Source: Odontesthes bonariensis
Lineage: Eukaryota > Chordata > Actinopteri > Atheriniformes > Atherinopsidae
Assembly: GCF_027942865.1 (NCBI RefSeq)
Contig: NC_134527.1
Span: 2,774,976 to 2,838,975 of the forward strand
Length of the DNA: 64,000 nucleotides
Direction of reading: 5' to 3'
Shown here in pieces: positions 6,210 to 63,500 of the stretch. The translations under genes and the position numbers were made by a program. Below the pieces are notes generated by a model. It made no database searches and was not told the DNA's origin. It saw nothing but the letters and a program-made list of their open reading frames with translations. Each line of letters starts with the position of its first letter. Positions within the stretch are counted from its first letter, which is position 1.

Positions 6210-6228
6210 AGATTACTTTCTTTTCCTG

Positions 6229-11486: not shown

Positions 11487-14400
11487 TCAGGACGAAGTGA
11501 CCGGCCGCAGAGGCGGGCAGGGGGAGGAGCTTCCTTCCTGTCGGGACGCCATGTTGCAGACGGCGAGGCTTCCCCCTCCTCCCCCCCCGGCTGTTGGCAT
11601 CTCCCCCGCTGCAGGTGGCGCCCCCTCCTGGATGGCAGTGCTGGGGTTGGCGACATCTTCGTTGTAGAGGCGTTTGATGCCGTCGTAGAAGTCGTCCACG
11701 TCCATCTGCTCCACCTGAACAGGCGAGAGGAGCTTAACTTTAGCCGCATTCGTACAGAGATGTTCTAAGAACGCAGTTCAAAGAACGCCGTTCTAGGAAC
11801 GCAGTTCAAAGAACGCAGTTCAAAGAACACCGTTCTAGGAACGCAGTCCTAAGAACGCAGTTCTAGGAACGCAGTCCAAAGAACGCCGTTCTAGGAACGC
11901 AGTCCTAAGAACGCCGTTCTAGGAACGCAGTTCTAGGAACGCAGTTCAAGGAACGCAGTTCTAGGAACGCAGTTCAAGGAACGCAGTTCAAAGAACGCCG
12001 TTCTAGGAACGCAGTTCAAAGAACGCAGTTCTAGGAACGCAGTTCAAAGAACGCAGTTCAAAGAACGCCGTTCTAGGAACGCAGTTCAAGGAACGCAGTT
12101 CAAAGAACGCAGTTCTAGGAACGCAGTTCAAAGAACGCAGTTCTAGGAACGCAGTTCAAAGAACGCCGTTCTAGGAACGCAGTCCTAAGAACGCCGTTCT
12201 AAGAACGCCGTTCTAGGAACGCAGTTCTAGGAACGCAGTTCAAGGAACGCAGTTCTAGGAACGCAGTTCAAAGAACGCAGTTCAAAGAACGCAGTTCTAG
12301 GAACGCAGTTCAAAGAACGCCGTTCTAGGAACGCAGTTCAAGGAACGCAGTTCAAAGAACGCAGTTCTAGGAACGCAGTTCAAGGAACGCAGTTCAAAGA
12401 ACGCCGTTCTAGGAACGCAGTTCAAGGAACGCAGTTCAAAGAACGCCGTTCTAGGAACGCAGTTCAAAGAACACCGTTCTAGGAACGCAGTCCTAGGAAC
12501 GCAGTTCAAAGAGCGCAGTTCTAGGAACGCAGTTCAAAGAACGCCGTTCTAGGAACGCAGTTCAAAGAACGCAGTTCAAAGAACACCGTTCTAGGAACGC
12601 AGTCCTAAGAACGCAGTTCTAGGAACGCAGTTCAAAGAACGCAGTTCAAAGAACGCAGTTCTAGGAACGCAGTTCAAAGAACACCGTTCTAGGAACGCAG
12701 TCCTAAGAACGCAGTTCTAGGAACGCAGTTCAAAGAACGCAGTTCTAGGAACGCAGTTCAAAGAACACCGTTCTAGGAACGCAGTCCTAAGAACGCAGTT
12801 CTAGGAACGCAGTTCAAGGAACGCAGTTCTAGGAACGCAGTTCAAAGAACGCAGTTCTAGGAACGCAGTTCAAAGAACGCAGTTCTAGGAACGCAGTTCT
12901 AGGAACGCAGTTCAAAGAACGCAGTTCTAGGAACGCAGTTCAAAGAACGCAGTTCAAAGAACGCAGTTCTAGGAACGCAGTTCAAAGAACGCCGTTCTAG
13001 GAACGCAGTTCAAGGAACGCAGTTCAAAGAACGCAGTTCAAAGAACGCAGTTCTAGGAACGCAGTTCAAAGAACGCAGTTCTAGGAACGCAGTTCAAAGA
13101 ACGCAGTTCAAGGAACGCAGTTCAAAGAACGCCGTTCTAGGAACGCAGTTCAAAGAACACCGTTCTAGGAACGCAGTCCTAAGAACGCAGTTCTAGGAAC
13201 GCAGTTCAAAGAACGCAGTTCTAGGAACGCCGTTCTAGGAACGCAGTTCAAAGAACGCAGTTCAAAGAACACCGTTCTAGGAACGCAGTCCTAAGAACGC
13301 AGTTCTAGGAACGCAGTTCAAAGAACGCAGTTCTAGGAACGCAGTTCAAAGAACACCGTTCTAGGAACGCAGTCCTAAGAACGCAGTTCTAGGAACGCAG
13401 TTCAAAGAACGCAGTTCTAGGAACGCAGTTCAAAGAACACCGTTCTAGGAACGCAGTCCTAAGAACGCAGTTCTAGGAACGCAGTTCAAAGAACGCAGTT
13501 CTAGGAACGCAGTTCAAAGAACACCGTTCTAGGAACGCAGTTCAAAGAAAACCGTTCTAGGAACGCAGTCCTAAGAACGCAGTTCTAGGAACGCAGTTCA
13601 AAGAACGCCGTTCTAGGAACGCAGTTCAAAGAACGCAGTTCAAAGAACACCGTTCTAGGAACGCAGTCCTAAGAACGCAGTTCTAGGAACGCAGTTCTAG
13701 GAACGCAGTTCAAAGAACACCGTTCTAGGAACGCAGTTCAAAGAACGCCGTTCTAGGAACGCAGTTCAAAGAACGCAGTTCAAAGAACACCGTTCTAGGA
13801 ACGCAGTCCTAAGAACGCAGTTCTAGGAACGCAGTTCAAAGAACACCGTTCTAGGAACGCAGTCCTAAGAACGCCGTTCTAGGAACGCAGTTCAAAGAAC
13901 GCCGTTCTAGGAACGCCGTCCTAGGAAAGCAGTTCAAAGAACGCAATTCTAGGAACGCAGTTCAAAGAACGCCGTTCTAGGAACGCAGTTCAAAGAACGC
14001 CGTTCTAGGAACGCAGTTCAAAGAACGCCGTTCTAGGAACGCAGTTCAAAGAACGCCGTTCTAGGAACGCAGTTCAAAGAACGCCGTTCTAGGAACGCAG
14101 TCCTAAGAACGCCGTTCTAGGAACGCAGTTCAAAGAACGCCGTTCTAGGAACGCAGTTCAAAGAACGCCGTTCTAGGAACGCAGTTCAAAGAACGCCGTT
14201 CTAGGAACGCAGTTCAAAGAACGCCGTTCTAGGAACGCAGTTCAAAGAACGCCGTTCTAGGAACGCAGTTCAAAGAACGCAGTTCTAGGAACGCAGTCCT
14301 AAGAACGCAGTTCTAGGAACGCCGTCCTAGGAACGCAGTTCAAAGAATGCCGTTCTAGGAAAGCAGTTCAAAGAACGCCGTTCTAGGAACGCAGTCCTAA

Positions 14401-17400
14401 GAACGCCGTTCTAGGAACGCAGTTCAAAGAACGCCGTTCTAGGAACGCAGTTCAAAGAACGCCGTTTTAGGAACGCAGTCCTAAGAACGCCGTCCTAGGA
14501 AAGCAGTTCAAAGAACGCCGTCCTAGGAACGCAGTTCAAAGAACGCCGTTCTAGGAAAGCAGTTCAAAGAACGCCGTTTTAGGAACGCAGTCCTAAGAAC
14601 GCCGTTCTAGGAACGCAGTTCAAAGAACGCCGTTCTAGGAACGCAGTTCAAAGAACGCCGTTCTAGGAACGCAGTTCAAAGAACGCCGTTCTAGGAACGC
14701 AGTTCAAAGAACGCCGTCCTAGGAAAGCAGTTCAAAGAACGCCGTCCTAGGAACGCAGTTCAAAGAACGCCGTTTTAGGAACGCAGTTCTAGGAACGCCG
14801 TTCTAGGAACGCAGTTCAAAGAACGCCGTTCTAGGAACGCAGTTCAAAGAACGCCGTTCTAGGAACGCAGTCCTAAGAACGCCGTTCTAGGAACGCAGTC
14901 CTAAGAACGCCGTTCTAGGAACGCAGTTCAAAGAACGCCGTTCTAGGAACGCAGTTCAAAGAACGCCGTTCTAGGAACGCAGTTCAAAGAACGCTGTTCT
15001 AGGAACGCCGTCCTAGGAAAGCAGTTCAAAGAACGCAGTTCTAGGAACGCAGTCCTAAGAACGCCGTTCTAGGAACGCCGTCCTAGGAACGCAGTTCAAA
15101 GAACGCCATTCTAGGAACGCAGTTCAAAGAACGCCGTTCTAGGAACGCAGTCCTAAGAACGCAGTCCTAAGAACGCCGTTCTAGGAACGCCGTTCTAGGA
15201 ACGCAGTTCAAAGAACGCCGTTCTAGGAACGCAGTTCAAAGAACGCCGTTCTAGGAACGCCGTCCTAGGAAAGCAGTTCAAAGAACGCAGTTCTAGGAAC
15301 GCAGTCCTAAGAACGCAGTTCTAGGAACGCCGTCCTAGGAACGCAGTTCAAAGAATGCCGTTCTAGGAAAGCAGTTCAAAGAACGCCGTTCTAGGAACGC
15401 AGTCCTAAGAACGCCGTTCTAGGAACGCAGTTCAAAGAACGCCGTTCTAGGAACGCAGTCCTAAGAACGCAGTCCTAAGAACGCCGTTCTAGGAACGCAG
15501 TTCAAAGAACGCCGTTCTAGGAACGCAGTCCTAAGAACGCAGTCCTAAGAACGCCGTTCTAGGAACGCAGTTCAAAGAACGCCGTTCTAGGAACGCAGTT
15601 CAAAGAACGCCGTTCTAGGAACGCCGTCCTAGGAACGCAGTCCAAAGAACACAGTTCTAGGAATGCGGCTCATGACTCGGGTCTGTTTGCGTGGCGGTGG
15701 AGCTCAGAGAGGCTCTTACCTTGCGCTTGGTGGAGGCCTTGCAGCGCAGCGTCACCTTGTGCAGCAGGTTCAGGCGGCCCAGGTGTTTCGGTGACAGAAG
15801 CAGAGCGGCGATTTTGCCGTCCGATGAGGAGGAGGAGGAGCTCCCATCCTCCCCACCAGCTGTTGTCTGTGGCAGGGTGGGTGTGAGCCAGTGGTCCCTG
15901 GAAGACTCAGCAGTGGAGGTGAAGGTCCCTGAGAAGAGTTCCACACACATACCTGATGTTACTCAGAGGTCTGGTGATGTTTCCACAGGTGGGTAGTAAC
16001 GAGTTACATTTACTTGAGTAAGTTTTTGAAAAAATTGTTTTAAATCTCTATACTTTTTCCTTTTACTTGAGTAGATGTGTGCAGCAGAAGCTGTCCTCTT
16101 ACTCCGCTACATTAGGCTACAATGAGCTGGTTACTTTTCTTCTTACCTCTTTGGTATTCTACGCCTCATTATTTTTATCCCCCCGCGTACGCCTCATTTT
16201 AATGTTTTATTCTGACAGAGAGAGAGACTTCCGCCAAAGGCTCTACCACCTGACTGTGTTCCACCAATCAGACGCAGCCGTGCAGTCTGGTCACGTGACC
16301 GTACTCGATCTCAGCGGCGGGACGGGTTAGCTTTAGCATTAGCAGTCGTAGCAAACAAACAAAGAAACGGATGAAAAATGTCAGAACCAACGGTGGGAAA
16401 TGAAGACGCAGACGAGGCCTCATACTGAAAGCATGTTTACCTTACAAAGAGTGAGAAACAGCAGCTACATTATGTGTCTTCTGTGGCAACCAAAACAAAC
16501 GCACATTTCAGCAGAAACTCAGCATCTAACTTGAGGAAACATGTAGCGCTAAGTTTCCTAAACTCGTTTTTCCCCCCATGGATAGGTGAATGTTTGTTTT
16601 TTAGGTTACATATGGGTTACACATGTTTTAAACATTTCCTAAGTCTCCTTTATTTTTTTATTGAAGTACTTGAATTTACCAGGATTATTTTAATTTAAGC
16701 TAGTTTGTAATTAACTAATTCATTTTAATTAATTTTATCAATTGGATGAACTCTTATTTGCCTAAAGATGATTATTTAGTATTTTTGTCTGTCTGATTGA
16801 ATGCTTGTGTTAACAAATAAATCAGACGTTACTCAACAGTTACTCAGTACTTGAGTAGTTTTTTCACCGAGCACTTTTTTACTCTTACTCAAGTAATTAT
16901 TTGGATGAATACTTTTTCCTTTTTTTTTTACATGTGAAGCCTACCCAGTGTGAATGAGGGCTCCTGGGCCGGAGGCTGCAGGGTGCTGTAGCCCTGCAGG
17001 GGGTGGTAGATGTAGACAGTGTTCGGAGGCAGGGAAGCTCTCGATGTGGACAGACTACGTGCCGCCAGCTCTCGACTGCGAATCAACTCAGAGCTGTCGA
17101 TCTAAGAGAGACGAAGAAGAAGAAGAAGAAGAGAGAAGTTCAGTTCTGAGTGAAACACAAAGTCAGCTAAAGAGCAAACTGCTCGAGAGATTCATCGAAA
17201 AGGGGAAACTTATTTTAAAGTGGAATAAAAACTGTCAGTAGTTCCCCTCAGGCTGTTAGGCGCCCCCTACTGGCCTCTCTGACTTTGTTTCTGTTTCCTA
17301 ATCCATTCTTTTCTTAAAACCAGTGATGCTCAGAGAGAAGAACGTCTTTCATTGGGGTGATAAACCACTCACACTAAACCTATATATCGTTCAAGCGTAA

Positions 17401-20400
17401 TAAAAGGGCTCCAACTCCAGGGAAAAACCAGTGTGTCTACACAAAAAAGACAATTTAGCGAAGAAGCTATTTTAATTTGTACTTTTAGACACGTAGTAAA
17501 AATGTAACAACAGATAAAAACAGGTTGACGAGACATAAAACATCATTTTGAAACCAAACAGATCAGATGACAGCTGGTGTTCCAGTCTTTATCCAACTGG
17601 GATTAATTACTTTGTTTGCTTGATTATAGTTTTGCTTTCTATATTTTGACACAAACTTAAGGCATTTTTTCTCTTATGTTGCAATCTTTCTTTTTTCCTA
17701 AAGCTTGCTAAAAACTACTTATATTATCACACAGTTTTTGTGTTTATTTAAGAAATGTTTTTCCGGTCATTGCAGAGCAAATTAAAGCATGTGATGCTGT
17801 TCCAGTCACTTCCGTGGCCACAGGTGTGTGAATCCAAGCAGCTCGGCATGCAGACTGCTTCTACCAACATCTGAACCCTGACAGGACGCCAGCTGTGCAA
17901 CGAGTCCAGCCGTGAAACTTCCTCGCTGCTAAATACTCCACAGTCAGCTGTCAGGGGTGTTATAACGGAGTGGAAGCGATGGGGAACGACAGCAGCTCAG
18001 CCAGGAAGTGGTCGGCCAGGTGAAATGACAGAGCGGGGTCAGAGGTCGCCGACTTTCTGCAGAGTCGGTCGCTGCAGACCTCCAACCTTCATGTTAGCTT
18101 CAGATTAGCTCAAGAACAGCGAATAGAGAGCTTCATGGAATGGGTTTCCATGGCAACTGCATCCAAGCCATACATCACCAAGTGCAATGCAAAGCGTCGG
18201 ATGCAGCGGTGTAAAGCACGCCGCCGCTGGACTCTAGAGCAGCGGAGACGCCTTCTCTGGAGGGACCAATCAGGCTGATGGAGGAGTCTGGGTTTGGTGG
18301 TTGCCAAGGCAACAGTGCTTGTCTGACTGCATTTTGCCAAGTGTAAAGTTTGGTGGAGGGGGGGGTTTCATGGTGTGGGGTTGTTGTTCAGGAGCTGGGC
18401 TTGGCCCCTTAGTTCCAGGGAAAGGAACTCTGAATGCTTTAGCAGACCAAGAGATTTTGACCATTTCATGCAACCAACTTTGTGGAAACGGTTGGGGGGA
18501 AACAAGTTGGGGGAAACAAGTTGGGGGAAACGCTTTGGGGGAAACTGTTGGGGGGAAACAAGTTGGGGGAAACGGTTGGGGGGAAACGGTTGGGGGGGAA
18601 AGGGTTGGGGGGAAACAAGTTGGGGGAAACAAGTTGGGGGAAACGGTTGGGGGGAAACGGTTGGGGGGGAAAGGGTTTGGGGGAAACGGTTTGGGGGAAA
18701 CGGTTGGGGGAAACGGTTGGGGGGAAACGGTTGGGGGGAAACGCTTTGGGGGAAACGGTTGGGGGGAAACGCTTTGGGGGAAACGCTTTGGGGGAAACGG
18801 TTGGGGGAAACGGTTGGGGGAAACGGTTGGGGGAAACGGTTGGGGGAAACGGTTGGGGGAAACGGTTGGGGGAAACGGTTGGGGGGAAACGCTTTTGGGG
18901 AAACGCTTTGGGGGGAAACTGTTGGGGGGAAACAAGTTGGGGGAAACGGTTTGGGGGAAAGGGTTGGGGGGAAACGGTTGGGGGGGGAAACGGTTTGGGG
19001 GAAACGGTTTGGGGGAAACGGTTGGGGGGAAACGGTTGGGGGGAAACGCTTTTGGGGAAACGCTTTTGGGGAAACGCTTTGGGGGGAAACGGTTGGGGGA
19101 AACGCTTTGGGGGAAACAGTTGGGGGAAACGGTTGGGGGGAAACGGTTGGGGGGAAACGGGTTGGGGGGAAACGGTTGGGGGGAAACGGTTGGGGGGAAA
19201 CGGTTGGGGGGAAACGGTTGGGGGGAAACGGTTGGGGGAAACAGTTGGGGGAAACGGTTGGGGGGAAACGAGTTGGGGGGAAACGGTTGGGGGAAACGGT
19301 TGGGGGGAAACGGTTGGGGGAAACGGTTGGGGGGAACGGTTGGGGGGAAACGGTTGGGGGAAACGGTTGGGGGGAAACGGTTGGGGGGAAACGCTTTGGG
19401 GGAAACGGTTGGGGGGAAACGGTTGGGGGAAACGGTTGGGGGGAAACGCTTTGGGGGAAACAGTTGGGGGAAACGGTTGGGGGGAAACGAGTTGGGGGGA
19501 AACGGTTGGGGGAAACGGTTGGGGGGAAACGGTTGGGGGGAAACGCTTTGGGGGAAACGGTTGGGGGAAACGGTTGGGGGGAAACGCTTTGGGGGAAACG
19601 GTTGGGGGAAACGCTTTGGGGGAAACGGTTGGGGGGAAACGGTTTGAGGACGGCCCCTTCCTGTTTCAACACAAAGCAAGCTCCATAAAGACCTGGATGA
19701 GCCAGAAGAACCTGACCGGCCTGCACAGAACACCTTTGGGATGAATCAGAGCAGAGACTGTGAGCCAGGCCTTCTGTCCAACATCAGAGATGAGCTTCTG
19801 GTCAAAAAACTCCCATAAACACTCCTAAAGCTTGTGGAAAGTTTGGCCAGCAGAGTTGAAGCTGTTGTAGCTGCAAAGGGTGGGCCGACGTCATGTTAAA
19901 CCATCTGGATTAAGAACGGGATGTTACTGAAGTTCATATGTGGGTAAAGAAAGATGAGAGAATACTTTGGTAATTGAGTGTAACTATTTTCAGCAGATAA
20001 ACAGTAGATGAAAGTGACGTCTTTAAGAAATAGGAAGGAGGTAAAGATGGAAATAAATAAATTGGACAAAGCTGACGCACCATCTGAGAGCTGCATCCGT
20101 CACTGAATGCGTCACCAGGGCCGTGATGGCAACAAAACAAGGAAGTGAAAGTGAAACCCAGAGTTTATGGGGCCAATTCATGGTGTGTGATCAACACAAC
20201 TCGTGATGAGACAAACCAACATGCTGTCCACGGTCCAAGTGGGTCATTAAGTACTAAACCGGGAGGCCCTGAGGAGATACGTACGATAATAAAGCAGCAG
20301 AATTCATGAGCTGTACTAAAAGCTGAGGATGTTAAAGGCAGACAGACCTGTGCCTTCCTCAGCAGGTCTATGGTCAGAGCCAGCCAGTCAGGGCAGCAGG

Positions 20401-45571: not shown

Positions 45572-48500
45572 TCAAAATCCCATGCGAGACTTCTTCTTGG
45601 GCTGCGACGTCTGCGAGAGCCCCGGCCGATCCTGCGAACTCTGGGAGGGGGTCTGGGAGAAGCCGCGGCCCGCCGACAGAGCCCCCCGGGGGGGTTTTAC
45701 GAGGAGAGACTGGGAGCTGCGGAGCCCGGAGGCAGGGGAAGGTGGAGGTGGCGGCTCCATCTGTGGCGGCTCCTCCTTTAAAGAGACACAGAGAGACATT
45801 TAAACTTTAGTCTAGAGATGCACCGGTTGCAAAATTCTTGGCCGATACCGATTTCCGTTTTTTTTAAGGAGGTCTGACCCGCCAAAACCGGTTTTTCCAA
45901 TCTAAGAAATCATTAGAATCATATAATAGACACTATATTTGTTTGGCTTGAGTACCCTTCTCCCAGACAACATTTTGCTTATATAACTGCAATTAAAACC
46001 ACAACTAGTGGTAGGCTATATGCTATCATAACCCCCCCTTTCAAGAATAAAACATCACAAATAAGAAATGGAGTTTCAACAGTGCCTCCTGAGCAGATTT
46101 ATTTTCAACGTTTGTGTATATGGCTTGGAACGCTCTCAAACTACTCTGGCCGCGCTGTCAGAAAAGTACCGCCTACTTGGTCATTTGTACCGTGGACTCG
46201 GGTGTTTCATCAGATTTACGAAGCCTTTATCCTGCACTACGCTAAACGGCTGCTCGTCCAGTGCCATGAACTCCATTATTTTCCTGGTGGACTTTTCGGT
46301 GGAGGGTGGCTGCGACTCTGCTGCATCCCTCCTCTTAGCAGTGTCCTCCTTATATCTGCTAAACAAACCCAGGTGCTTCTTTTCCAAGTGGCGTATTAAG
46401 TTTGTTGTTCCAAATGTCTCAGGCGTTGATCCTCCGCGGCTTACTTTTGACTTACAAGAATTACAAACGGCGTGTTTTGGCACAAAGTGAAATAAGTCCA
46501 GATCAGTGACGTGTTTACTTCCTGAGTCCTGCTAGGTTTTAGCAGCGTTGAGCTGCTACACACCGCGCATGCGGGTCAGTTTGAGCAGCCGAAAACCGGA
46601 AATTACGACAGTGACCGGCCGGTCACCGATTGGGGCCGATTGGATATAAAACTGGCTTATTTTTATTTATTTATTTATTTTAAATCGGCGGCCGATTGAT
46701 CGGTGCATCTCTACTTTAGTATGGAGTTTATTTTGTGTCAATAAGTTTAAAGAATACTTTTATAAGAGCAAGCAAAATATATCAATTCAAAAACTAAATT
46801 TAAAAAAGTCAAACAAAAAATACATGATTGCAATTTAAAAAAACTGAAATCGTGTAAAATATTTGCCTTCGCCTCCTTCTCAGTTTTGGTTGTTGTCGTT
46901 TTCTTTGATTACGTCTCCAGCTTTCTCGTTTGCGCTCCCTGACTTTTTGTTTGCGGTTTTGACACAAACGCAGCAGCTACTCTGCTTCTGATTGGTTCTA
47001 AAAACGAAAAGGAAACTTACAATTTTTTCCATAATAACCGGTCCCGGCTTACCTCAGACTGCATCCTGAAGAATCGAGAAGGGCTTCACGAAGGGCTGTG
47101 GTATAGTTATCTTCTGGTTTTGGCGGTAGTTCGGTCAGTGTGAGGGGGTTGGCGTTTTTAGAACCAATCAGAAGCAGAGTAGCTGCTGTGGCCAGAGCTG
47201 CTTCGTACGCTTGCTTAGCTGTCCGTCGAACACAAATAAGCCAATAGGAATGCCCCCGTCGAAAGCCCACCCACCAGGCACGTTTGTGTCAAAACCGTAA
47301 ACAAAAAGTCAGGGAGCGCAAACGAGAAAGCTGGAGACGTAATCAAAGAAAACGACAACAACCAACACTGAGAAGGAGGCGAAGGCAAATATTTTACACG
47401 ATTTCAGTTTTTTTTAAATTGCAATCATGTATTTTTTGTTTGAATTTGTTCTTTTTTTGTTTGACTTTTTTAAATTTAATTTTGAATTGAAATATTTTGC
47501 TTGCTCTTATAAAAGTCTTCTTTAAACTTATTGACACAAAATAAACTCCATACTTTAGTCAGCATTAAAATCATCCACTCAAATGTTGAAATGTGACGGG
47601 TTCAAAGCAGCAGACGTTTGCCGGCACATCATGTCTCGGCTCGAGTGAAGAGAGAGCGACGAGCTGCCGACTGCGCTGACAGCCGAGTGATGAGCGGCGG
47701 CGCTTTAATGGTTCCCATCTGCGACCGCCCGAGGAGCCGCTATCTGTGCGCGTTACGCTGGATTTATGCATCCGGGAACTTCTCGCTTACTCAAACTCGC
47801 ATACTAACTCAGAAAGTTAGTAGGAGAAGTAGGAGAAGTATGCGGTTTCAAACACAGCCTTCTATTTCATCAACACCGGTGTGACAGATGTTCAACGCAC
47901 AATCAGATGATGGCAGTGAAGAGCAGGGCTGTGTTCGAAACCGCATACTTCTCCTACTACTCCTACTAACTTTTTGAGTTAGTATGCTAGTTTGAGTAAG
48001 CGAGAAGTTCCTGGGTGCATACTAGATTCTCTGAAATGTTGGGTATGCATCATGAGGTTACTACTCATACTCAAACTACCCAAGATGCAACGTAACGTGA
48101 CGTCGCCGATCGTCATTTCCTGTCAAAACGGCAGTTTCAAGCTAGCTACAACGAGGGTAGGTTCACTTCCTGTTTTCAAAACAAAAGCACCAATTGTATC
48201 CTAATGGCTTTCCCTATGATAAAAGGCAACGGGTATTTTATTTTGTGAAAATAACAGGAAGTGCGTTGCTCACTGCGGCTAGCTTTAGTAGCGCCGAATT
48301 CGTGGGAACAAAATTGTAAACAGCCGGTATTTTGTCAGGTTTTCAACACGTTGGGGATCTAAACGACTACTTTCTCACCTGAAAATGTTTCAAATGTTGC
48401 TAAAGTTTACAGAGTTTAGAGCTTAAGAGAAATCAGCTTCAGGCCGGCTGATGTCGGCTCGGGCAGGAGCGAAATGCATTGTGGGTAAACACTCTGCATA

Positions 48501-51500
48501 CTGTCTGATCGATCAGTATGTAGTATGCAGTATGTAGTATGGAAGTATGTAGTATGTGGTAGTATGTGTTTCGAACACAGCCCAGGTGTTCTTTCACCTG
48601 CACTTTGCTCGGACCGAACAGATGTTTTTCTAAAAGCCGGATAAGTAACTGCGCCCTGCGTTCATCCCCCCAAACGGGACAGATGTGTGATTACTGTTAG
48701 CAACATCTGGAGCACTGCAGCCTTACCTGTGTTGAAAACAGAGAGCTGAGGTCGTCCTCCGCAGGACGCTTGGTCCTCCTCTGATTGGCTGCTGCGGCCC
48801 CAGGGCTTCGTGTCTGGGACAGCGAGACGTCGTGGCGCCCGCTGGGGGTCTGCGGATCGCCTTGCGTCTGGGACAGCGAGACGTCGTGGCGCCCGCTGGG
48901 GGTCTGCGGATCGCCTTGCGTCTGGGACAGCGACATGGCGTGGCGCCCGCTGGGGGTCTGCGGATCGCCTTGCGTCTGCGGATCGCCTCTTTTATTCGTC
49001 CGCGGCGTGCTGGCTTGGCTGGGAGAGTCCGATTGAACGGCGGAAGGCGACGCTGTTCTTCTAATATCCTTGGCCAGCTGGGCCAGCACCCCACACCCGT
49101 CCGAGTCTGACCACGCCCCCTGACTCGCCGCGGACGACCACCCCGTCGAGCTGGAGAAATCGTCCAGCGTCGACTGGTAGCTGAGCGACGAGGTGAAGCT
49201 GCCGCTCAGCTCCACCCGCTGGCCGGCGGCCCTCTTCGCCTCCTTCTGGCTCCGCCTCCTCCGCCTCAGAGCGTCCAGCTTGGCGTGCTGGTTCAGCCCC
49301 AGCTGCTCCTCCCACCACGCCTGCCACGCCTCCTCGCCCTGCCAGGAGAGCGTCAGCCGCTCGCTCAGAGGGTCCGTCCAGGCTTCCGTGTCCACCCGAT
49401 GGGGCACGGGCGCCACGTCTGAAGCCCCGAGCGCAGCGGAGACGGCGCCGTGCACCAGCAGCGAGCGCTCGGACATGCACGACCTCAGCGCTCGCCTCAG
49501 GGTCCCCACGCTCTGCTCCTCTGATGCGTCACCGGCAGACAGACGCAGCAGACCTTTAGTTCTGATGGTGAAATGCTGAAAGCTGCCGGACTCCTTCTTC
49601 TTCTTCTCCTTCTTCTTCTTCTCACTACTTTTCTGAATGAGTATCTGAAGCCAACGTTTCCACGTGGCCAAAGTGTCTTTGCTGAGCTTCGTCTGAGAGC
49701 GACACTCGGCGCCTTCTTCGCCGCTACGCTCCTCGCCATAGGAAGAAACGACAGATCTGTACAGCCTCGATTGATCTTTTTCTGGCGTCTCGACAACAAT
49801 CGTTGGCCCGATGGCGTCCTCGCAGCTCGACGCGTCCGATGCAACCGGCTCTGCGCCTCTTCTCGCTGGTCGCGGACGCTTTCTGGCTCTTTGTGGAGGT
49901 CCGTCCTCTGCAGCCGGAGGTCCAGATGTGTCGCCATCTGGCAGCTTGAGCTCGAGGATCTGGTAGAAAATGTCTCCTGCTTCTGTGAGCTGTAAGACAC
50001 ACATCGACTCCTCGCTGCTGGGTCGTCTTCCTACTTTCCTCTGGATACACGTCACCCCTGACAACACACAAAAAAACCTGTGAGCTGAGATATCTAACAG
50101 CAGAGACCATGTTCCTCAAGTTTTAGCTTCTCTAAGAGTTTCTAAAAGCAAAATGGGAGGCAGAGCCTTCGGTTATCAGGCTCAATACCGCATACTGATC
50201 TGTAAGACAGTATCCAGAGCGATTACCCACAATGCATTTCGCTCCTGCCCGAGCCGAAATCAGTCGGCCTGAAGCTGATTTCTCTTAAGCTCTAAACTCT
50301 GTAAACTTTAGCAACATTTGAAACATTTTCAGGTGAGAAAGTAGTCGTTTAGATCCCCAACGTGTTGAAAACCTGACAAAATACCGGCTGTTTACCATTT
50401 TGTTCCCACGAATTCGGCGCTACTAAAGCTAGCCGCAGTGAGCTAACGCACTTCCTGTTATTTTCACAAAATAAAATACCCGTTGCCTTTTATCATAGGG
50501 AAAGCCATTACCATACAATTGGTGCTTTTGTTTTGAAAACAGGAAGTGAACCTACCCTCGTTGTAGCTAGCTTGAAACTGCCGTTTTGACAGGAAATGAC
50601 GATCGGCGACGTCACGTTACGTTGCATCTTGGGTAGTTTGAGTATGAGTAGTAACCTCATGATGCATACCCAACATTTCGGAGAATCTGGTATGCATCCG
50701 GGAACTTCTCCCTTACTCAAACTCGCATACTAACTCAAAAAATTAGTATGAGTAGTAGGAGGAGTATGCGGTTTCTCTACCTTTAAGATCAGGACTAGCG
50801 AGTCGTCCATTAAGTTTTGTTGCTATAGATCTGATACATGTCTGCCATCTGGGTGAGACACAAAGAGATCCTTCCTGTTTGATAAACGACTAAAAAAAAC
50901 ACGATCTTAAATTCAAAAAGGACATATTTACATGAAATGGACAGAACTTCCCAATAGTAAAGTATCAAATGACAACAGGAAAGGCGTAATGTGGGCAGAA
51001 TTAGTGAAACTACAGCTTCCTTTCAGCTTTGCACGCCCTGTTCCAGCGTTTCGGCCCATTGTAAACACTCCCTTCTGGGTAATTCTCACTGCTTTTATCA
51101 TGTGGTTTGCAGACACAGCACGCTGCTGTTTCAGTGTGTGGCTTTAAAAACCTTTAGACATGACTCAAACCTTATCCACACACACTCCAAAGCTCCACGT
51201 TTTTACATTTTATCTCATAAAAACATGCGCTGGGGTTCCCAATAATAAATCAGCCCGTTAAAAAAAAGAATTTCTCGACTGTCGCATTGATAAAATCCTG
51301 ATTTTATTTAACTGCAGTGTCAGTAAATAAGATCACAATTCAAAGAGAAAAGATGACAGCACTCTGTGCAGTTAACTTCCACCAGTTCTGGTCTTTGGAG
51401 AGATTTCTGCTGGCGGAATCTGATCAGATATTTCAGAACTCCTGAGTTAAAATGTGAGCAGCCAGCAAGAAAGCTGTAACCCGGAAATGGCTGCAGGCTT

Positions 51501-54500
51501 CACCCCCCACAGAGACAGACCGGATAGATGTTGTGACAAATATTCAAAATATGGAAAGGATGAGCTTTTCGGTAAGTCTAAGGATCGATAAGTATTCGCA
51601 ATAATGGGAAAAATGGATTGTGTTTGTGGCCACAAGAGATGCTCACTGAGCCATTACTGTATGAACCGAGTTGTATCATCAGCATAATGTCTGTTTAAAT
51701 GTGTAGGTGACAAACTGTTTGTTCTACAACAGAAATAGAATAGAAAAATACTTTATTCATCCCCCAATGGGGGAAATTCAAATTAGTCAAGTAGCTAAAA
51801 AAAAATTACAAATATTTACAATGATTGTATATTAACAACAACAATAATAATAATACCAATTCTAGTAAAAATACTACTACTAACTAATAATAATAATAAA
51901 TGACGAAATAAATAAATAAAATTAATTAATTAATAAAATGAAATAAATGAAATAAAATAAAATAAATAAATAAAAAAATTTCTTTCTTTTTCTGTATATT
52001 TATTTATTTTATTTCTATAAAAATAAAGTACAAAAAACAAACAAACAGATAAGATGACAGCAGGGGAACGCAGCCAATGTTTCCTCACACAGTAGATAAT
52101 CTCCTTTAACTCAGTTTCCCTCCATGTTTACACATAAATGTACCGACTGTGTCATTTGTTACCTGCAGCAGGCGCAGACAGTCTGTCGGTCGTGGTTTCC
52201 AGCCGGTGAGGGATCTGAACCGGGAGATGTTTCAGGCTGCCTTTAGGTCTGAGGAGCGCCTGAGGAGGACCTCGACTGAAGCAGGCCTGCAGTCTGCCTC
52301 CTGAACCAGGTAGGGGTGTAATAATCAGTAACTGGCATTTAGCTGTTATGCAGCTAACAAGTGGAACAAACTGCCAGTGGAGATGAAACTTTCACCAAAT
52401 GGAGACATTTTTAAATCCAGGTTAAAGACATTTCTGTTCTCATGTGTCTATTCATGAAATCTGCACGATATCTTTGAACTTATCTGCTTGTTTTTAGAAA
52501 TAGAAAAATACTTTATTCATCCCCCAATGGGGGAAATTCAAATTAGTCAAGTAGCTCAAAAAAATTATAAATATTTACAATGATTGTATCTTAACAACAA
52601 TAATAATACCAATTTTATTTTAATTTTAGTAAAAATACTACTACTAATAATAATAAAAATGACTAAATAAACAAATTAAAATAAATTAATTAATATTTGT
52701 AATAATAAAATTTAATTTAAATTAAAAAAATTTAAATAAGTTTTATTTATTTTTTTAAATAAATCTATCAATCAATTTGAGAAGAACTCAGCAGTTGGAC
52801 TATCGCTGAATTTGTTTATATTTTTTTCTTTTTTTAAAGCATTTTGAATCGTTCTGGACATGAAATGTGCTATATTAATAAATTTGATTTGATTTGATTG
52901 GCACAAATCTGAATCTAAATTCATCAAACTCCGCCTGGATGCTGCCGTCCTCTCTCCACTGACCGGAGTACTGAAGCAGGGTGACTTCCTGAGAACTGTG
53001 GGAGCCCAGCAGGATCTTATTCGCCCTCGTTTCGCCCGGAATGACGTGAGAAAAAAGGGGCGGAGCCTCCATCATGTGATCGGACTTCAGCATGGGCACG
53101 CAGGGGAAACGCTCGTCCATGATGTAGGCCGAGTGCTGACGGGACAGACGGAGAGACGGTGTAAGAATACCTGAAAGGCTGCGACATCACCGGCCTGAAA
53201 CTGCGAGGATGCACCTGCGTGGTGACGAGGTGATGGAAGGGGTGGAGCTCTCCCAGATACCGGCACAGGATCAGTCGCTCTCCACTCCGGCACTCCGAGG
53301 AGCTGCTGATGCGAAACAGCGTGTGACCAGAACACGGACTCACCTGCAGGGACGGGAAGTAAAGGGAGTGAAGGAAGTAAAGGAAGTAAAGGAAGTAAAG
53401 GGAGTGAAGGAAGTAAAGGAAGTAAAGGAAGTAAAGGGAGTGAAGGAAGTGAAGGGAGTGAAGGAAGTAAAGGATGTAAAGGAAGCGAAGGATGTAAAGG
53501 ATGTAAAAGGAAGTGAAGGATGTAAAGGAAGGGAAGGAAGTAAAGGAAGTGAAGGAAGTGAAGGGAGTGAAGGAAGTAAAGGAAGTAAAGGAAGTAAAGG
53601 GAGTGAAGGAAGTGAAGGGAGTGAAGGAAGTAAAGGAAGTGAAGGGAGTGAAGGAAGTAAAGGAAGTAAAGGGAGTGAAGGAAGTGAAGGGAGTGAAGGA
53701 AGTAAAGGATGTAAAGGAAGCGAAGGATGTAAAGGATGTAAAAGGAAGTGAAGGAAGTAAAGGAAGTGAAGGAAGTGAAGGAAGTAAAGGAAGCAAAGGA
53801 AGCAAAGGAAGCAAAGGAAGCAAAGGAAGTAAAGGAAGTAAAGGGAGTGAGGGAAGTAAAGGAAGCGAAGGATGTAAAGGAAGGGAAGGAAGTAAAGGAA
53901 GTAAAAGGATGTAAAAGGAAGTGAAGAATGTAAAGGAAGGGAAGGAAGTAAAGGAAGTAAAAGGATGTAAAAGGAAGTGAAGGAAGTAAAGGAAGTGAAG
54001 GGAGTGAAGGAAGTAAAGGAAGTAAAGGGAGTGAAGGAAGTGAAGGGAGTGAAGGAAGTAAAGGATGTAAAGGAAGCGAAGGATGTAAAGGATGTAAAAG
54101 GAAGTGAAGGAAGTAAAGGAAGTGAAGGAAGTGAAGGAAGTAAAGGAAGCAAAGGAAGCAAAGGAAGCAAAGGAAGTAAAGGAAGTAAAGGGAGTGAGGG
54201 AAGTAAAGGAAGCGAAGGATGTAAAGGAAGGGAAGGAAGTAAAGGAAGTAAAAGGATGTAAAAGGAAGTGAAGAATGTAAAGGAAGGGAAGGAAGTAAAG
54301 GAAGTAAAAGGATGTAAAAGGAAGTGAAGGAAGTAAAGGAAGTGAAGGGAGTGAAGGAAGTAAAGGATGTAAAGGAAGCGAAGGATGTAAAGGATGTAAA
54401 AGGAAGTGAAGGATGTAAAGGAAGGGAAGGAAGTAAAGGAAGTAAAAGGATGTAAAAGGAAGTGAAGGAAGTAAAGGAAGTGAAGGGAGTGAAGGAAGTA

Positions 54501-57500
54501 AAGGAAGTGAAGGGAGTGAAGGAAGTAAAGGAAGTAAAGGAAGTAAAGGAAGTAAAGGGAGTGAAGGAAGTGAAGGGAGTGAAGGAAGTAAAGGAAGTGA
54601 AGGGAGTGAAGGAAGTAAAGGAAGTAAAGGGAGTGAAGGAAGTGAAGGGAGTGAAGGAAGTAAAGGATGTAAAGGAAGCGAAGGATGTAAAGGATGTAAA
54701 AGGAAGTGAAGGATGTAAAGGAAGGGAAGGAAGTAAAGGAAGTAAAAGGATGTAAAAGGAAGTGAAGGAAGTAAAGGAAGTGAAGGGAGTGAAGGAAGTA
54801 AAGGAAGTAAAGGAAGTAAAGGAAGTGAAGGAAGTAAAGGAAGTCAAGGAAGTAAAGGAAGTGAAGGAAGTGAAGGAAGTAAAGGAAGTGAAGGAAGTGA
54901 AGGAAGTAAAGGAAGTAAAGGAAGCGAAGGAAGCGAAGGAAGCAAAGGAAGCAAAGGAAGCAAAGGAAGCAAAGGAAGTAAAGGAAGTAAAGGGAGTGAA
55001 GGAAGTAAAGGAAGCGAAGGATGTAAAGGATGTAAAAGGAAGTGAAGAATGTAAAGGAAGGGAAGGAAGTAAAGGAAGTAAAAGGATGTAAAAGGAAGTG
55101 AAGGAAGTAAAGGAAGTGAAGGGAGTGTAGGAAGTAAAGGAAGTAAAGGAAGTGAAGGAAGTAAAGGAAGTGAAGGAAGTGAAGGAAGTAAAGGAAGTGA
55201 AGGAAGTGAAGGAAGTGAAGGAAGTAAAGGAAGTGAAGGAAGTAAAGGAAGTGAAGGAAGTGAAGGAAGTGAAGGAAGTAAAGGAAGTAAAGGAAGCGAA
55301 GGAAGCAAAGGAAGCAAAGGAAGCAAAGGAAGTAAAGGAAGCAAAGGAAGTAAAGGAAGTAAAGGGAGTGAAGGAAGTAAAGGAAGCGAAGGATGTAAAG
55401 GATGTAAAAGGAAGTGAAGAATGTAAAGGAAGGGAAGGAAGTAAAGGAAGTAAAAGGATGTAAAAGGAAGTGAAGGAAGTAAAGGAAGTGAAGGGAGTGA
55501 AGGAAGTAAAGGAAGTAAAGGAAGTGAAGGAAATGAAGGGAGTGAAGGAAGTAAAGGGAGTGAAGGAAGTAAAGGAAGTAAAGGGAGTGAAGGAAGTGAA
55601 GGGAGTGAAGGAAGTAAAGGATGTAAAGGAAGCGAAGGATGTAAAGGATGTAAAAGGAAGTGAAGGATGTAAAGGAAGGGAAGGAAGTAAAGGAAGTAAA
55701 AGGATGTAAAAGGAAGTGAAGGAAGTAAAGGAAGTGAAGGGAGTGAAGGAAGTAAAGGAAGTAAAGGAAGTGAAGGAAGTAAAGGAAGTGAAGGAAGTGA
55801 AGGAAGTAAAGGAAGTGAAGGAAGTAAAGGAAGTGAAGGAAGTAAAGGAAGTAAAGGAAGTGAAGGAAGTGAAGGAAGTAAAGGAAGTGAAGGAAGTGAA
55901 GGAAGTAAAGGAAGTAAAGGAAGCGAAGGAAGCAAAGGAAGCAAAGGAAGCAAAGGAAGTAAAGGAAGCAATGGAAGCAAAGGAAGTAAAGGAAGTAAAG
56001 GAAGCAAAGAAAGCAAAGGAAGTAAAGGAAGTAAAGGAAGCAAAGGAAGTAAAGGAAGCAAAGAAAGCAAAGGAAGTAAAGGAAGTAAAGGAAGCAAAGG
56101 AAGCGAAGGAAGTAAAGGAAGCAAAGAAAGCAAAGGAAGTAAAGGAAGTAAAGGAAGCAAAGAAAGCAAAGGAAGTAAAGGAAGTAAAGGAAGCAAAGGA
56201 AGCAAAGGAAGTAAAGGAAGTAAAGGAAGCAAAGGAAGCGAAGGAAGTAAAGGAAGTGAAGGAAGTGAAGGAAGTAAAGGAAGTAAAGGAAGTGAAGGAA
56301 GTAAAGGAAGTAAAGGAAGCGAAGGAAGCAAAGGAAGCAAAGGAAGCAAAGGAAGCAAAGGAAGCAAAGGAAGTAAAGGAAGCAAAGGAAGTAAAGGAAG
56401 TAAAGGGAGTGAAGGAAGTAAAGGAAGCGAAGGATGTAAAGGATGTAAAAGGAAGTGAAGAATGTAAAGGAAGGGAAGGAAGTAAAGGAAGTAAAAGGAT
56501 GTAAAAGGAAGTGAAGGAAGTAAAGGAAGTGAAGGGAGTGAAGGAAGTAAAGGAAGTAAAGGAAGTGAAGGAAGTAAAGGAAGTGAAGGAAGTAAAGGAA
56601 GTGAAGGAAGTAAAGGAAGTGAAGGAAGTGAAGGAAGTGAAGGAAGTAAAGGAAGTGAAGGAAGTAAAGGAAGTAAAGGAAGTGAAGGAAGTGAAGGAAG
56701 TAAAGGAAGTGAAGGAAGCGAAGGAAGTAAAGGAAGTAAAGGAAGCGAAGGAAGCAAAGGAAGCAAAGGAAGCAAAGGAAGCAAAGGAAGTAAAGGAAGC
56801 AAAGGAAGCAAAGGAAGTAAAGGAAGTAAAGGAAGTAAAGGAAGTAAAGGAAGTGAAGGAAGTGAAGGAAGTAAAGGAAGCAAAGAAAGCAAAGGAAGTA
56901 AAGGAAGCACAGGAAGCAAAGGAAGCAAAGGAAGTAAAGGAAGCAAAGGAAGCAAAGGAAGCAAAGGAAGTAAAGGAAGTAAAGGAAGTGAAGGAAGTAA
57001 AGGAAGTAAAGGAAGCAAAGAAAGCAAAGGAAGTAAAGGAAGCAATGGAAGCAAAGGAAGCAAAGGAAGCAAAGGAAGTAAAGGAAGCAAAGAAAGCAAA
57101 GGAAGTAAAGGAAGTAAAGGAAGCAAAGGAAGTAAAGGAAGCAAAGAAAGCAAAGGAAGTAAAGGAAGTAAAGGAAGCAAAGGAAGCGAAGGAAGCGAAG
57201 GAAGTAAAGGAAGCAAAGAAAGCAAAGGAAGTAAAGGAAGTAAAGGAAGCAAAGAAAGCAAAGGAAGTAAAGGAAGTAAAGGAAGCAAAGGAAGCAAAGG
57301 AAGTAAAGGAAGCAAAGGAAGCAAAGGAAGCAAAGGAAGTAAAGGAAGCAAAGGAAGCAAAGGAAGCAAAGGAAGTAAAGGAAGTAAAGGAAGTGAAGGA
57401 AGTAAAGGAAGTAAAGGAAGCAAAGAAAGCAAAGGAAGTAAAGGAAGCAAAGAAAGTAAAGGAAGCAAAGGAAGTAAAGGAAGCAAAGGAAGTAAAGGAA

Positions 57501-60500
57501 GCAAAGAAAGCAAAGGAAGTAAAGGAAGTAAAGGAAGCAAAGGAAGCGAAGGAAGTAAAGGAAGCAAAGAAAGCAAAGGAAGTAAAGGAAGTAAAGGAAG
57601 CAAAGAAAGCAAAGGAAGTAAAGGAAGTAAATGAAGCAAAGGAAGCAAAGGAAGCAAAGGAAGTAAAGGAAGTAAAGGAAGCAAAGGAAGCGAAGGAAGC
57701 GAAGGAAGTAAAGGAAGTAAAGGAAGCAAAGGAAGTAAAGGAAGTAAAGGAAGCAAAGGAAGTAAAGGAAGCAAAGAAAGCAAAGGAAGTAAAGGAAGTA
57801 AAGGAAGCAAAGGAAGCGAAGGAAGTAAAGGAAGCAAAGAAAGCAAAGGAAGTAAAGGAAGTAAAGGAAGCAAAGAAAGCAAAGGAAGTAAAGGAAGTAA
57901 AGGAAGCAAAGGAAGCAAAGGAAGCAAAGGAAGTAAAGGAAGTAAAGGAAGTAAAGGAAGCAAAGGAAGCAAAGGAAGTAAAGGAAGCAAAGAAAGCAAA
58001 GGAAGTAAAGGAAGTAAAGGAAGCAAAGGAAGCGAAGGAAGTAAAGGAAGCAAAGAAAGCAAAGGAAGTAAAGGAAGTAAAGGAAGCAAAGGAAGCAAAG
58101 GAAGCAAAGGAAGTAAAGGAAGTAAAGGAAGTATAGGGAGCAAAGGAAGCAAAGGAAGTAAAGGAAGCAAAGAAAGCAAAGGAAGTAAAGGAAGTAAAGG
58201 AAGCAAAGGAAGCGAAGGATGTAAAGGATGTAAAAGGAAGTGAAGAATGTAAAGGAAGGGAAGGAAGTAAAGGAAGTAAAAGGATGTAAAAGGAAGTGAA
58301 GGAAGTAAAGGAAGTGAAGGGAGTGAAGGAAGTAAAGGAAGTAAAGGAAGTGAAGGAAGTAAAGGAAGTGAAGGAAGTAAAGGAAGTGAAGGAAGTGAAG
58401 GAAGTGAAGGAAGTAAAGGAAGTGAAGGAAGTAAAGGAAGTAAAGGAAGTGAAGGAAGTGAAGGAAGTAAAGGAAGTGAAGGAAGCGAAGGAAGTAAAGG
58501 AAGTAAAGGAAGCGAAGGAAGCAAAGGAAGCAAAGGAAGCAAAGGAAGCAAAGGAAGCAAAGGAAGTAAAGGAAGTAAAGGAAGTAAAGGAAGTAAAGGA
58601 AGTGAAGGAAGTGAAGGAAGTAAAGGAAGCAAAGAAAGCAAAGGAAGTAAAGGAAGCACAGGAAGCAAAGGAAGCAAAGGAAGTAAAGGAAGCAAAGGAA
58701 GCAAAGGAAGCAAAGGAAGTAAAGGAAGTAAAGGAAGTGAAGGAAGTAAAGGAAGTAAAGGAAGCAAAGAAAGCAAAGGAAGTAAAGGAAGCAATGGAAG
58801 CAAAGGAAGCAAAGGAAGCAAAGGAAGTAAAGGAAGCAAAGAAAGCAAAGGAAGTAAAGGAAGTAAAGGAAGCAAAGGAAGTAAAGGAAGCAAAGAAAGC
58901 AAAGGAAGTAAAGGAAGTAAAGGAAGCAAAGGAAGCGAAGGAAGTAAAGGAAGCAAAGGAAGTAAAGGAAGTAAAGGAAGCAAAGAAAGCAAAGGAAGTA
59001 AAGGAAGTAAAGGAAGCAAAGGAAGCAAAGGAAGCAAAGGAAGTAAAGGAAGCAAAGGAAGCAAAGGAAGCAAAGGAAGTAAAGGAAGCAAAGGAAGCAA
59101 AGGAAGCAAAGGAAGTAAAGGAAGTAAAGGAAGTGAAGGAAGTAAAGGAAGTAAAGGAAGCAAAGAAAGCAAAGGAAGTAAAGGAAGCAAAGAAAGTAAA
59201 GGAAGTAAAGGAAGTAAAGGAAGCAAAGGAAGTAAAGGAAGCAAAGAAAGCAAAGGAAGTAAAGGAAGTAAAGGAAGCGAAGGAAGCAAAGGAAGCAAAG
59301 GAAGCAAAGGAAGCAAAGGAAGTAAAGGAAGTAAAGGGAGTGAAGGAAGTAAAGGAAGCGAAGGATGTAAAGGATGTAAAAGGAAGTGAAGAATGTAAAG
59401 GAAGGGAAGGAAGTAAAGGAAGTAAAAGGATGTAAAAGGAAGTGAAGGAAGTAAAGGAAGTGAAGGGAGTGAAGGAAGTAAAGGAAGTAAAGGAAGTGAA
59501 GGAAGTAAAGGAAGTGAAGGAAGTAAAGGAAGTGAAGGAAGTGAAGGAAGTAAAGGAAGTAAAGGAAGCGAAGGAAGCAAAGGAAGCAAAGGAAGCAAAG
59601 GAAGCAAAGGAAGCAAAGGAAGTAAAGGAAGCAAAGGAAGCAAAGGAAGTAAAGGAAGTAAAGGAAGTAAAGGGAGTGAAGGAAGTAAAGGAAGCGAAGG
59701 ATGTAAAGGATGTAAAAGGAAGTGAAGAATGTAAAGGAAGGGAAGGAAGTAAAGGAAGTAAAAGGATGTAAAAGGAAGTGAAGGAAGTAAAGGAAGTGAA
59801 GGGAGTGAAGGAAGTAAAGGAAGTGAAGGAAGTAAAGGAAGTGAAGGAAGTGAAGGAAGTAAAGGAAGTGAAGGAAGTGAAGGAAGTGAAGGAAGTAAAG
59901 GAAGTAAAGGAAGCAAAGAAAGCAAAGGAAGTAAAGGAAGTAAAGGAAGTAAAGGACGTAAAGGAAGTAAAGGAAGCAAAGAAAGCAAAGGAAGTAAAGG
60001 AAGTAAAGGAAGTAAAGGAAGTAAAGGAAGTAAAGGAAGCAAAGAAAGAAAAGGAAGTAAAGGAAGTAAAGGAAGCAATGGAAGCAAAGGAAGCAAAGGA
60101 AGTAAAGGAAGTAAAGGAAGCAAAGAAAGCAAAGGAAGTAAAGGAAGTAAAGGAAGCAAAGGAAGTAAAGGAAGTAAAGGAAGTAAAGGAAGTAAAGGAA
60201 GCAAAGAAAGCAAAGGAAGTAAAGGAAGCAAAGGAAGCAATGGAAGCAAAGGAAGCAAAGGAAGTAAAGGAAGTAAAGGAAGCAAAGAAAGCAAAGGAAG
60301 TAAAGGAAGTAAAGGAAGCAATGGAAGCAAAGGAAGCAAAGGAAGTAAAGGAAGTAAAGAAAGCAAAGAAAGCAAAGAAAGCAAAGGAAGTAAAGGAAGT
60401 AAAGGAAGCAAAGGAAGCAAAGGAAGTAAAGGAAGTAAAGGAAGCAAAGAAAGCAAAGGAAGTAAAGGAAGTAAAGGAAGCAATGGAAGCAAAGGAAGCA

Positions 60501-63500
60501 AAGGAAGTAAAGGAAGTAAAGGAAGTAAAGGAAGCAAAGAAAGCAAAGGAAGTAAAGGAAGTAAAGGAAGCAAAGGAAGTAAAGGAAGTAAAGGAAGCAA
60601 AGAAAGCAAAGGAAGTAAAGGAAGCAAAGGAAGAAAAGAAAGCAAAGGAAGTAAAGGAAGTAAAGGACGTAAAGGAAGCAAAGGAAGCAAAGGAAGCAAA
60701 GGAAGTAAAGGAAGTAAAGGAAGCAAAGAAAGCAAAGGAAGTAAAGGAAGTAAAGGAAGTAAAGGACGTAAAGGAAGTAAAGGAAGCAAAGAAAGCAAAG
60801 GAAGTAAAGGAAGTAAAGGAAGTAAAGGAAGCAAAGAAAGAAAAGGAAGTAAAGGAAGTAAAGGAAGCAAAGGAAGCAAAGGAAGTAAAGGAAGTAAAGG
60901 AAGCAAAGAAAGCAAAGGAAGCAAAGGAAGTAAAGGAAGCAAAGGAAGTAAAGGAAGTAAAGGAAGTAAAGGAAGTAAAGGAAGCAAAGAAAGCAAAGGA
61001 AGTAAAGGAAGCAATGGAAGCAAAGGAAGTAAAGGAAGCAAAGAAAGCAAAGGAAGTAAAGGAAGTAAAGGAAGCAATGGAAGCAAAGGAAGCAAAGGAA
61101 GTAAAGGAAGTAAAGAAAGCAAAGGAAGTAAAGGAAGTAAAGGACGTAAAGGAAGTAAAGGAAGCAAAGAAAGCAAAGGAAGCAAAGGAAGTAAAGGAAG
61201 TAAAGGAAGCAAAGAAAGCAAAGGAAGTAAAGGAAGTAAAGGAAGTAAAGGACGTAAAGGAAGTAAAGGAAGCAAAGAAAGCAAAGGAAGTAAAGGAAGT
61301 AAAGGAAGTAAAGGAAGTAAAGGAAGCAAAGAAAGAAAAGGAAGTAAAGGAAGTAAAGGAAGCAAAGGAAGCAAAGGAAGTAAAGGAAGTAAAGGAAGCA
61401 AAGAAAGCAAAGGAAGCAAAGGAAGTAAAGGAAGCAAAGGAAGTAAAGGAAGTAAAGGAAGTAAAGGAAGTAAAGGAAGCAAAGAAAGCAAAGGAAGTAA
61501 AGGAAGTAAAGGAAGCAAAGGAAGCAATGGAAGCAAAGGAAGTAAAGGAAGCAAAGAAAGCAAAGGAAGTAAAGGAAGTAAAGGAAGCAATGGAAGCAAA
61601 GGAAGCAAAGGAAGTAAAGGAAGTAAAGAAAGCAAAGGAAGTAAAGGAAGTAAAGGAAGCAATGGAAGCAAAGGAAGCAAAGGAAGTAAAGGAAGTAAAG
61701 GAAGCAAAGAAAGCAAAGGAAGCAAAGGAAGTAAAGGAAGCAAAGGAAGTAAAGGAAGCAAAGAAAGCAAAGGAAGTAAAGGAAGTAAAGGAAGCAAAGG
61801 AAGCGAAGGAAGTAAAGGAAGCAAAGAAAGCAAAGGAAGTAAAGGAAGTAAAGGAAGCAAAGGAAGTAAAGGAAGTAAAGGAAGTAAAGGAAGTAAAGGA
61901 AGCAAAGAAAGCAAAGGAAGTAAAGGAAGTAAAGGAAGCAAAGGAAGCAATGGAAGCAAAGGAAGTAAAGGAAGTAAAGGAAGCAAAGAAAGCAAAGGAA
62001 GTAAAGGAAGTAAAGGAAGCAATGGAAGCAAAGGAAGCAAAGGAAGTAAAGGAAGTAAAGAAAGCAAAGGAAGTAAAGGAAGTAAAGGAAGCAATGGAAG
62101 CAAAGGAAGCAAAGGAAGTAAAGGAAGTAAAGGAAGCAAAGAAAGCAAAGGAAGCAAAGGAAGTAAAGGAAGCAAAGGAAGTAAAGGAAGCAAAGAAAGC
62201 AAAGGAAGTAAAGGAAGTAAAGGAAGCAAAGGAAGCGAAGGAAGTAAAGGAAGCAAAGAAAGCAAAGGAAGTAAAGGAAGTAAAGGAAGCAAAGAAAGCA
62301 AAGGAAGTAAAGGAAGTAAAGGAAGCAAAGGAAGCAAAGGAAGCAAAGGAAGTAAAGGAAGCAAAGGAAGCAAAGGAAGTGAAGGAAGTGAAGGAAGCAA
62401 AGGAAGCAAAGGAAGTAAAGGAAGTGAAGGAAGTGAAGGAACTAATGGAAGTAAAGGAAGTGAAGGAACTAATGGAAGTAAAGGAAGACGGGCCAAAAAC
62501 AGCTCCACCTCTGGGACTCACCCTCACGTCTGTGAGCTCCACGCCCGTCCGGTCGGCGTACAGCATCACCCTCGGGTGGGCGGAGAACTCGCACCATCTC
62601 CATGACGACTTGGCGTTGAAGTACAGGTTGCTATGCTCCACCCGAACCGTCTGCATCCTGATGGGGAGGAATACGTTTTATCTAATTAATCACATGATTT
62701 CCCTGATTAATCGCGATTAATCGCATTTGTACACAGAATCCAAAAGTAGCGTATAGCTTTTAGCATTTAGCTTTATTTTAAATGTGCTGCCATATGAATG
62801 AAAGTGCCATAACATTTGTTGTGCAAACACACTTTTAACATCAGCATCTTTCTGTAGTTTTTATGTAGAAGCCTCGCTCCACTGTCTGTTTCCTTGAATG
62901 ACAGACTTTTACAAAATAGGCACAAAAGCCCCCAAAAATGTGGGAAAAAAAAATTCTATATTTTTTTAAATGTATTTTTTTATTAAAATGTTTTAATTTG
63001 TTTAATTTTTTTTTTAAATTTGTTATATAAAAAAATTTATTTTTAAAAAAAGGAAAAGAAAATTGTATTTTTTTTTGGACATTTTTTTTGTATTTTTGGG
63101 GGGAAAAATTGCATTTAAAAAATAATAATAATAATAAAACCTACGTCAATGCACGATAAAATATTTATCTTTGTTAAATAATTAACAGGTTAACGCGTCC
63201 AGCCCTAGTTTTTTTTATTCTCAGCCGTCTCCAGCTCCAGCAGAACGGCTTCCTCACCCTTTGCCCACAGTCCACAGGTTCGCTGCTCCGCTCTCACTCG
63301 CCACCAAAACTTCCCCCAAAACATGAGGGCTGAAATCACAAAGCAGAGAGACGGTAACTTTTTCTCCTCTTGTTCACCCGGAGGCCGCGGCCTTCCTCCT
63401 CCTGATGCTCGCTCACCTGACGGCGACGCAGGTCGCCACCTCGCTGGCGTTGATCACCTGCAGCAGACGCGGTTCCTTTGTTTCGCTGAACCTCCAAACT

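Follow-up and report, generated by a model that had tools for sequence, protein, structure and literature searches.

We analyzed a 64-kb window of the Odontesthes bonariensis genome (assembly GCF_027942865.1, contig NC_134527.1, positions 2,774,976 to 2,838,975), which contains the gene taf1c on its minus strand. All coordinates refer to this window, and the sense direction is that of taf1c. Pfam searches identified TAF1C_HB in the frame at 48697-50115 and TAF1C_beta-prop (PF20641) in both exons flanking a giant intron. The upstream exon (62522-62657, minus strand) matched profile positions 62-107 (E=1.5e-23), and the downstream exon (53215-53343, minus strand) matched positions 110-138 (E=1e-07); the 5' border of the former was predicted from CATCAG/G and the 3' border of the latter from CAG/GTGCAT. 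The upstream match stops at profile position 107 and the third residue of the downstream exon corresponds to position 110, so that the two residues between them fill positions 108 and 109 and the coding sequence joins without a gap at 62522/53343. The donor (AGG/GTGAGT) and the acceptor (CTGCAG/GTG), which are in frame and of the U2-type GT-AG class, would therefore fit the coding sequence exactly. This join rules out mis-called splice sites and confirms the boundaries, 53344 and 62521, given for this intron in a preliminary description of the locus. A 344-bp query (53000-53343, including the downstream exon) had a single match in the 945-Mb assembly and thus revealed no second taf1c copy. The peptide of the joined exons had no relatives in the PDB (0 matches), and no Pfam family was found in a further reading frame at 52875-53186.

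The intron (53344-62521, minus strand), delimited by the sequence and by the continuity of the PF20641 profile, is 9178 nt long and 88% pyrimidine on the sense strand. Tandem Repeats Finder (TRF) reported a single array at 53355-62487 with a period of 9, 1010.6 copies, and 88% matches, covering 9133 nt or 99.5% of the intron, which was correctly recognized in the preliminary description as one array. When aligned with wraparound to TTTACTTCC, the sense unit, the array resolved into 1011 units of just 26 types. The commonest were TTTACTTCC (404 units), TTTGCTTCC (226), TTCACTTCC (122), and TTTGCTTTC (62), and the other types were rarer. The same alignment contained 38 single-T insertions, the majority of which recur at spacings of 10 and 46 bases. 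Exact internal duplications of 404 bp at a lag of 1749, 328 bp at a lag of 432, and 237 bp at a lag of 2931 were found. These long duplications point to block duplication, which probably occurred repeatedly. Outside the array remain 34 nt on the donor side (62488-62521, GTGAGTCCCAGAGGTGGAGCTGTTTTTGGCCCGT), with four AGs inside, and 11 nt on the acceptor side (53344-53354, CGTCCCTGCAG). The array thus adjoins the acceptor closely, as had been noted, although the gap is 11 nt and not about 13.

Only four stop triplets occur in the intron over the three sense frames, none of them in the frame of the upstream exon, and the whole intron lies within an open reading frame (ORF) of 3196 aa (53087-62677, minus strand). 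Intron retention would thus yield a huge low-complexity tail rich in F, T, S, and A rather than an early stop. We also observed that the first eight bases of the intron, GTGAGTCC (62514-62521), are identical to the first eight of the downstream exon (53336-53343, both on the minus strand), which means that splicing would restore the donor sequence AGG/GTGAGTCC in the mRNA. This identity could be due either to chance or to a trace of duplication.

Minisatellites are long arrays in which units of about 6-100 bp follow one another head to tail. The taf1c array consists of head-to-tail 9-bp units and occupies a single locus at a stringency of four units: a degenerate four-unit pattern had 396 forward and 0 reverse matches in the whole assembly, and the window alone contains 396 forward and 0 reverse matches, spanning 53744-62402, so that all 396 fall in this array. 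The control, the same pattern read backwards, had no match in the whole assembly. The satellite is therefore private to the taf1c intron at this stringency. Having 396 of 396 matches in one array supports growth in place, bears out the earlier proposal that the satellite originated at taf1c and did not spread from elsewhere in the genome, and at this stringency rules out the insertion of a dispersed satellite. No more than two copies of the sense 6-mer CCCGTC are present in the intron, one spanning each array border. The arrangement TTCC-TTTAC-TTCC is a short direct repeat of the type that slippage models take as a starting point, and growth of the array out of the 3' splice-site tract, as previously suggested, is plausible.

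We counted the sense AGs in 53344-62521 and found seven. Five lie outside the array: the acceptor itself (A at 53345) and four on the donor side (A at 62518, 62512, 62510, and 62504). The other two lie within the array, in units of the ATTAGTTCC type (A at 62470 and 62443). The stretch 53346-62441 is thus free of sense AG over 9096 nt, which agrees with an earlier inspection by eye that had seen none from about 62440 down to the acceptor. Elsewhere in the window, the longest AG-free run on either strand measures 300 nt. An AG-free stretch of this length upstream of an acceptor has the outward form of an AG-exclusion zone. It could reflect purifying selection that keeps the array free of AG and rich in branch-point adenines near the acceptor, as a working 9-kb exclusion zone with many interchangeable branch points. 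In line with such selection, the zone is almost devoid of GT as well (8 occurrences and no GTRAG), and AG and donor-like sites abound on the opposite strand.

However, AG is no scarcer in the array than its composition and repeat structure would lead one to expect. For a random cyclic 9-mer unit, the probability of lacking AG on a given strand is 0.54. For the 22 derived nine-letter unit types, 0.76 AG-bearing types were expected by simulation (P=0.46 for none), and the array has one, located at its donor edge. In this simulation, 23 substitution steps were placed at random with the observed share of transitions (10 of 23), parsimonious parents were assumed, and the two types with insertions were excluded, as was a partial unit. 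AA and GG are equally absent from the zone (0 each) and GA occurs once, so purine pairs are missing generally and not AG as such. We also sampled twenty 10-kb stretches of the same contig, taking arrays of at least 300 bp with a period of at least 4 and merging overlapping TRF rows. Of the 14 arrays, two lacked AG on one strand (L003:155-812 with a period of 18 and L004:363-967 with a period of 7), although seven of the 14 are pieces of one stretch with periods of 200-211 and hence are not independent. The array is real, as is its length, but for a 9-bp repeat of so few unit types its freedom from AG is no more than chance would give. The suggestion that selection makes the array an AG-exclusion zone is thus not supported, and selection against AG was rejected as unneeded. 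The absence of AG is best explained by a repeat unit that is itself AG-free and has been homogenized.

We then considered the branch-point and acceptor signals. The region expected to hold the branch point and pyrimidine tract is the array, as had been stated. Branch-like adenines at -17, -26, -35, and -44 (53360, 53369, 53378, and 53387) were identified by motif match in the nearest units (53355-53390, minus strand). For most branch points in cattle, a distance of 18-37 nt to the acceptor is reported (PMC8531310). The array ends only 11 nt before the exon, so any branch point placed within the usual range would have to be an array unit. The motif yTnAy occurs 645 times in the intron, compared with 365 ± 15 in order-1 Markov sequences and 299 ± 12 in base shuffles. 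However, 644 of the 645 are of the yTyAy form, with a pyrimidine before the branch adenine, including those at -26 and -35, and only one is of the preferred yTrAy form. In the predicted cattle heptamer nnyTrAy, position 5 is reported to be a purine in 69.89% of cases and TNA to be present in 90.47% (PMC8531310). The "hundreds of redundant splice signals" proposed earlier therefore exist as yTnAy matches but were overstated, because nearly all are of the weaker type. This weakness also argues against selection for interchangeable branch points, as does the expectation that the kilobases on the donor side should be irrelevant to a branch point near -26 or -35. Considering these results with the AG counts, we regard maintenance of the array by purifying selection as unlikely.

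Taken together, the results make it likely that a minisatellite expanded in situ in the taf1c intron, that the expansion was splice-neutral in this orientation, and that the AG-free run is passive. A short ancestral taf1c intron would have gained the 9-bp minisatellite by local duplication of pyrimidine-rich sequence beside the acceptor, through slippage and unequal exchange with block duplications later. Expansion to about 1010 units would have continued until 99.5% of the intron was array. Splicing would have persisted, presumably because the units nearest the acceptor provide an ordinary, weak branch adenine and pyrimidine tract, and because the repeat unit, read in the sense direction, contains no AG and no usable GT. 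The AG-free run would then be a passive result of the unit and its homogenization and not a maintained exclusion zone.

Several observations weigh against in-situ, splice-neutral expansion. Both other AG-free arrays in the sample are only about 0.6 kb long, far shorter than the 9096-nt zone. Units with a branch adenine become commoner toward the acceptor: their share is 0.49 among the first 100 units (donor end), as against 0.87 and 0.84 in the two final blocks of 100, and every one of the 14 units closest to the acceptor carries the adenine. This enrichment could reflect selection near the splice site, and of all our results it most favors the view taken in the preliminary description. However, the trend is uneven: the share falls to 0.45 in units 505-606, and runs of up to 27 branch-adenine units occur elsewhere in the array. 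Because of these runs and the few independent array domains, the gradient is not evidence of selection.

The present orientation also appears splice-safe in a way that its reverse would not. The array contains 2 AGs on the sense strand and 1938 on the antisense strand, and the latter also carries 603 donor-like sites of the GTRARG type, so the reverse orientation would look hazardous to splicing. Such strong strand asymmetry could arise if intronic arrays form in both orientations and only those free of AG and GT in the sense direction reach kilobases, in which case the array would have been filtered rather than maintained. This is a single case, however, a random 9-mer is AG-free on a given strand about half the time, and the comparison arrays of the window and the sample were taken without regard to introns. 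The scarcity of GT and AG on the sense strand fits tolerance, but weakly, since there is a single case whose prior probability is about one half. We consider survivorship by orientation improbable, if less so than purifying selection.

We further considered the properties of the transcribed array. The 601 nt adjoining the acceptor had a predicted minimum free energy (MFE) of -2.4 kcal/mol, and on this basis a structured RNA was rejected. As a counterpoint, the z-score was -2.23, and 2 of 20 shuffles reached an equally good fold, but at energies this small such figures mean little. The nascent, unstructured (UUUACUUCC)n might instead act as a platform that binds pyrimidine-tract proteins and tunes the splicing of taf1c or of other transcripts. 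The low folding energy and the 925 CCUU and 80 UCUU motifs in the intron would be consistent with this, and in flies a PTB homologue is reportedly needed to process the transcripts of a gene whose introns are filled with satellite (PMC6508621). Nevertheless, sites of the UCUU type are few, and the longest pure pyrimidine run in the intron is 17 nt. A functional RNA-protein platform of this kind seems very improbable.

To our knowledge, the tract in PKD1 intron 21 is the nearest known pyrimidine intron of kilobase size. H-DNA tracts of the PKD1 type are long pure pyrimidine/purine tracts, and the taf1c intron, at 88% pyrimidine and with no pure run beyond 17 nt, contains no such pure tract. Going by titles cited in PMC11696556, PKD1 intron 21 holds a 2.5-kb polypyrimidine tract with repeat-containing, H-DNA-forming sequences (Van Raay 1996), which is lacking in mouse (Piontek and Germino). 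Both introns appear to carry kilobases of sense-strand pyrimidine with repeats, whereas in taf1c the repeat is a regular 9-bp array whose units almost all contain a purine and which reaches to 11 nt from the exon. The nearest satellite-filled introns that we know of are those of Drosophila Y genes. These genes are described as having gigantic satellite-containing introns (PMC6508621). In both cases a simple satellite has to be transcribed and spliced out; the Drosophila introns are, however, described as megabase-sized and belong to Y-linked testis genes, while the taf1c intron is 9 kb and belongs to a general transcription-factor gene. AG-exclusion zones were defined by Gooding et al. 2006 (PMC1431707), who called striking a zone of 1126 nt in a 1132-nt intron of human tyrosine phosphatase sigma. 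The taf1c intron resembles their exons with distant branch points, as described there, in being AG-free upstream from the acceptor. It differs in that its zone of 9096 nt is about eight times as long as the human case and in that the repeat unit explains the absence of AG; the many nearer branch-like motifs, although of the weaker type, would seem to make a distant branch point unnecessary. Among the literature matches listed, judged by titles and the starts of abstracts, we found no earlier description of the taf1c array intron, and a prior account is possible.

Other repeats were also present. Within the open frame 48697-50115, downstream of the TAF1C helical-bundle match, lies a 54-bp tandem repeat (48812-48978, minus strand; 3.1 copies, 97% by TRF). 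A second long array in the window, at 11762-15663, spans 3.9 kb with TRF periods of 28 and 112 and a palindrome-like unit, GTTCTAGGAACGCA. A further array at 18484-19644 consists of 1.2 kb of GGAAACGGTTGGGG with a period of 14 and G runs on the plus strand. In L003, one of the sampled 10-kb stretches, four different long arrays (periods 18, 16, 69, and 14) lie within 9 kb at 155-9092, and this cluster suggests a genome or contig region rich in minisatellites. An ORF at 46181-46531 (minus strand) contains a BED zinc finger (E=3.6e-08) and a match to the Hermes transposase domain below the Pfam cut-off, and is perhaps a remnant of a hAT-type element.

The taf1c array is a real and extreme intronic minisatellite, and a selective reading of it does not follow from the sequence. 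It cautions that AG-free zones in repetitive sequence cannot be read as signs of selection or of distant branch points. More tentatively, the branch-point/pyrimidine-tract module of this very intron may have been the seed that became the repeat unit, so that its 3' splice signal was self-amplified about a thousandfold. We regard this as a possibility, if not a strong one; under it, such signals would reach kilobases only in the orientation free of AG and GT, and the evolution of intron length would depend on the strand of the seed. With almost only repeat remaining where the branch point belongs, the taf1c intron offers an extreme natural test of how far replacement by simple repeats is compatible with splicing.

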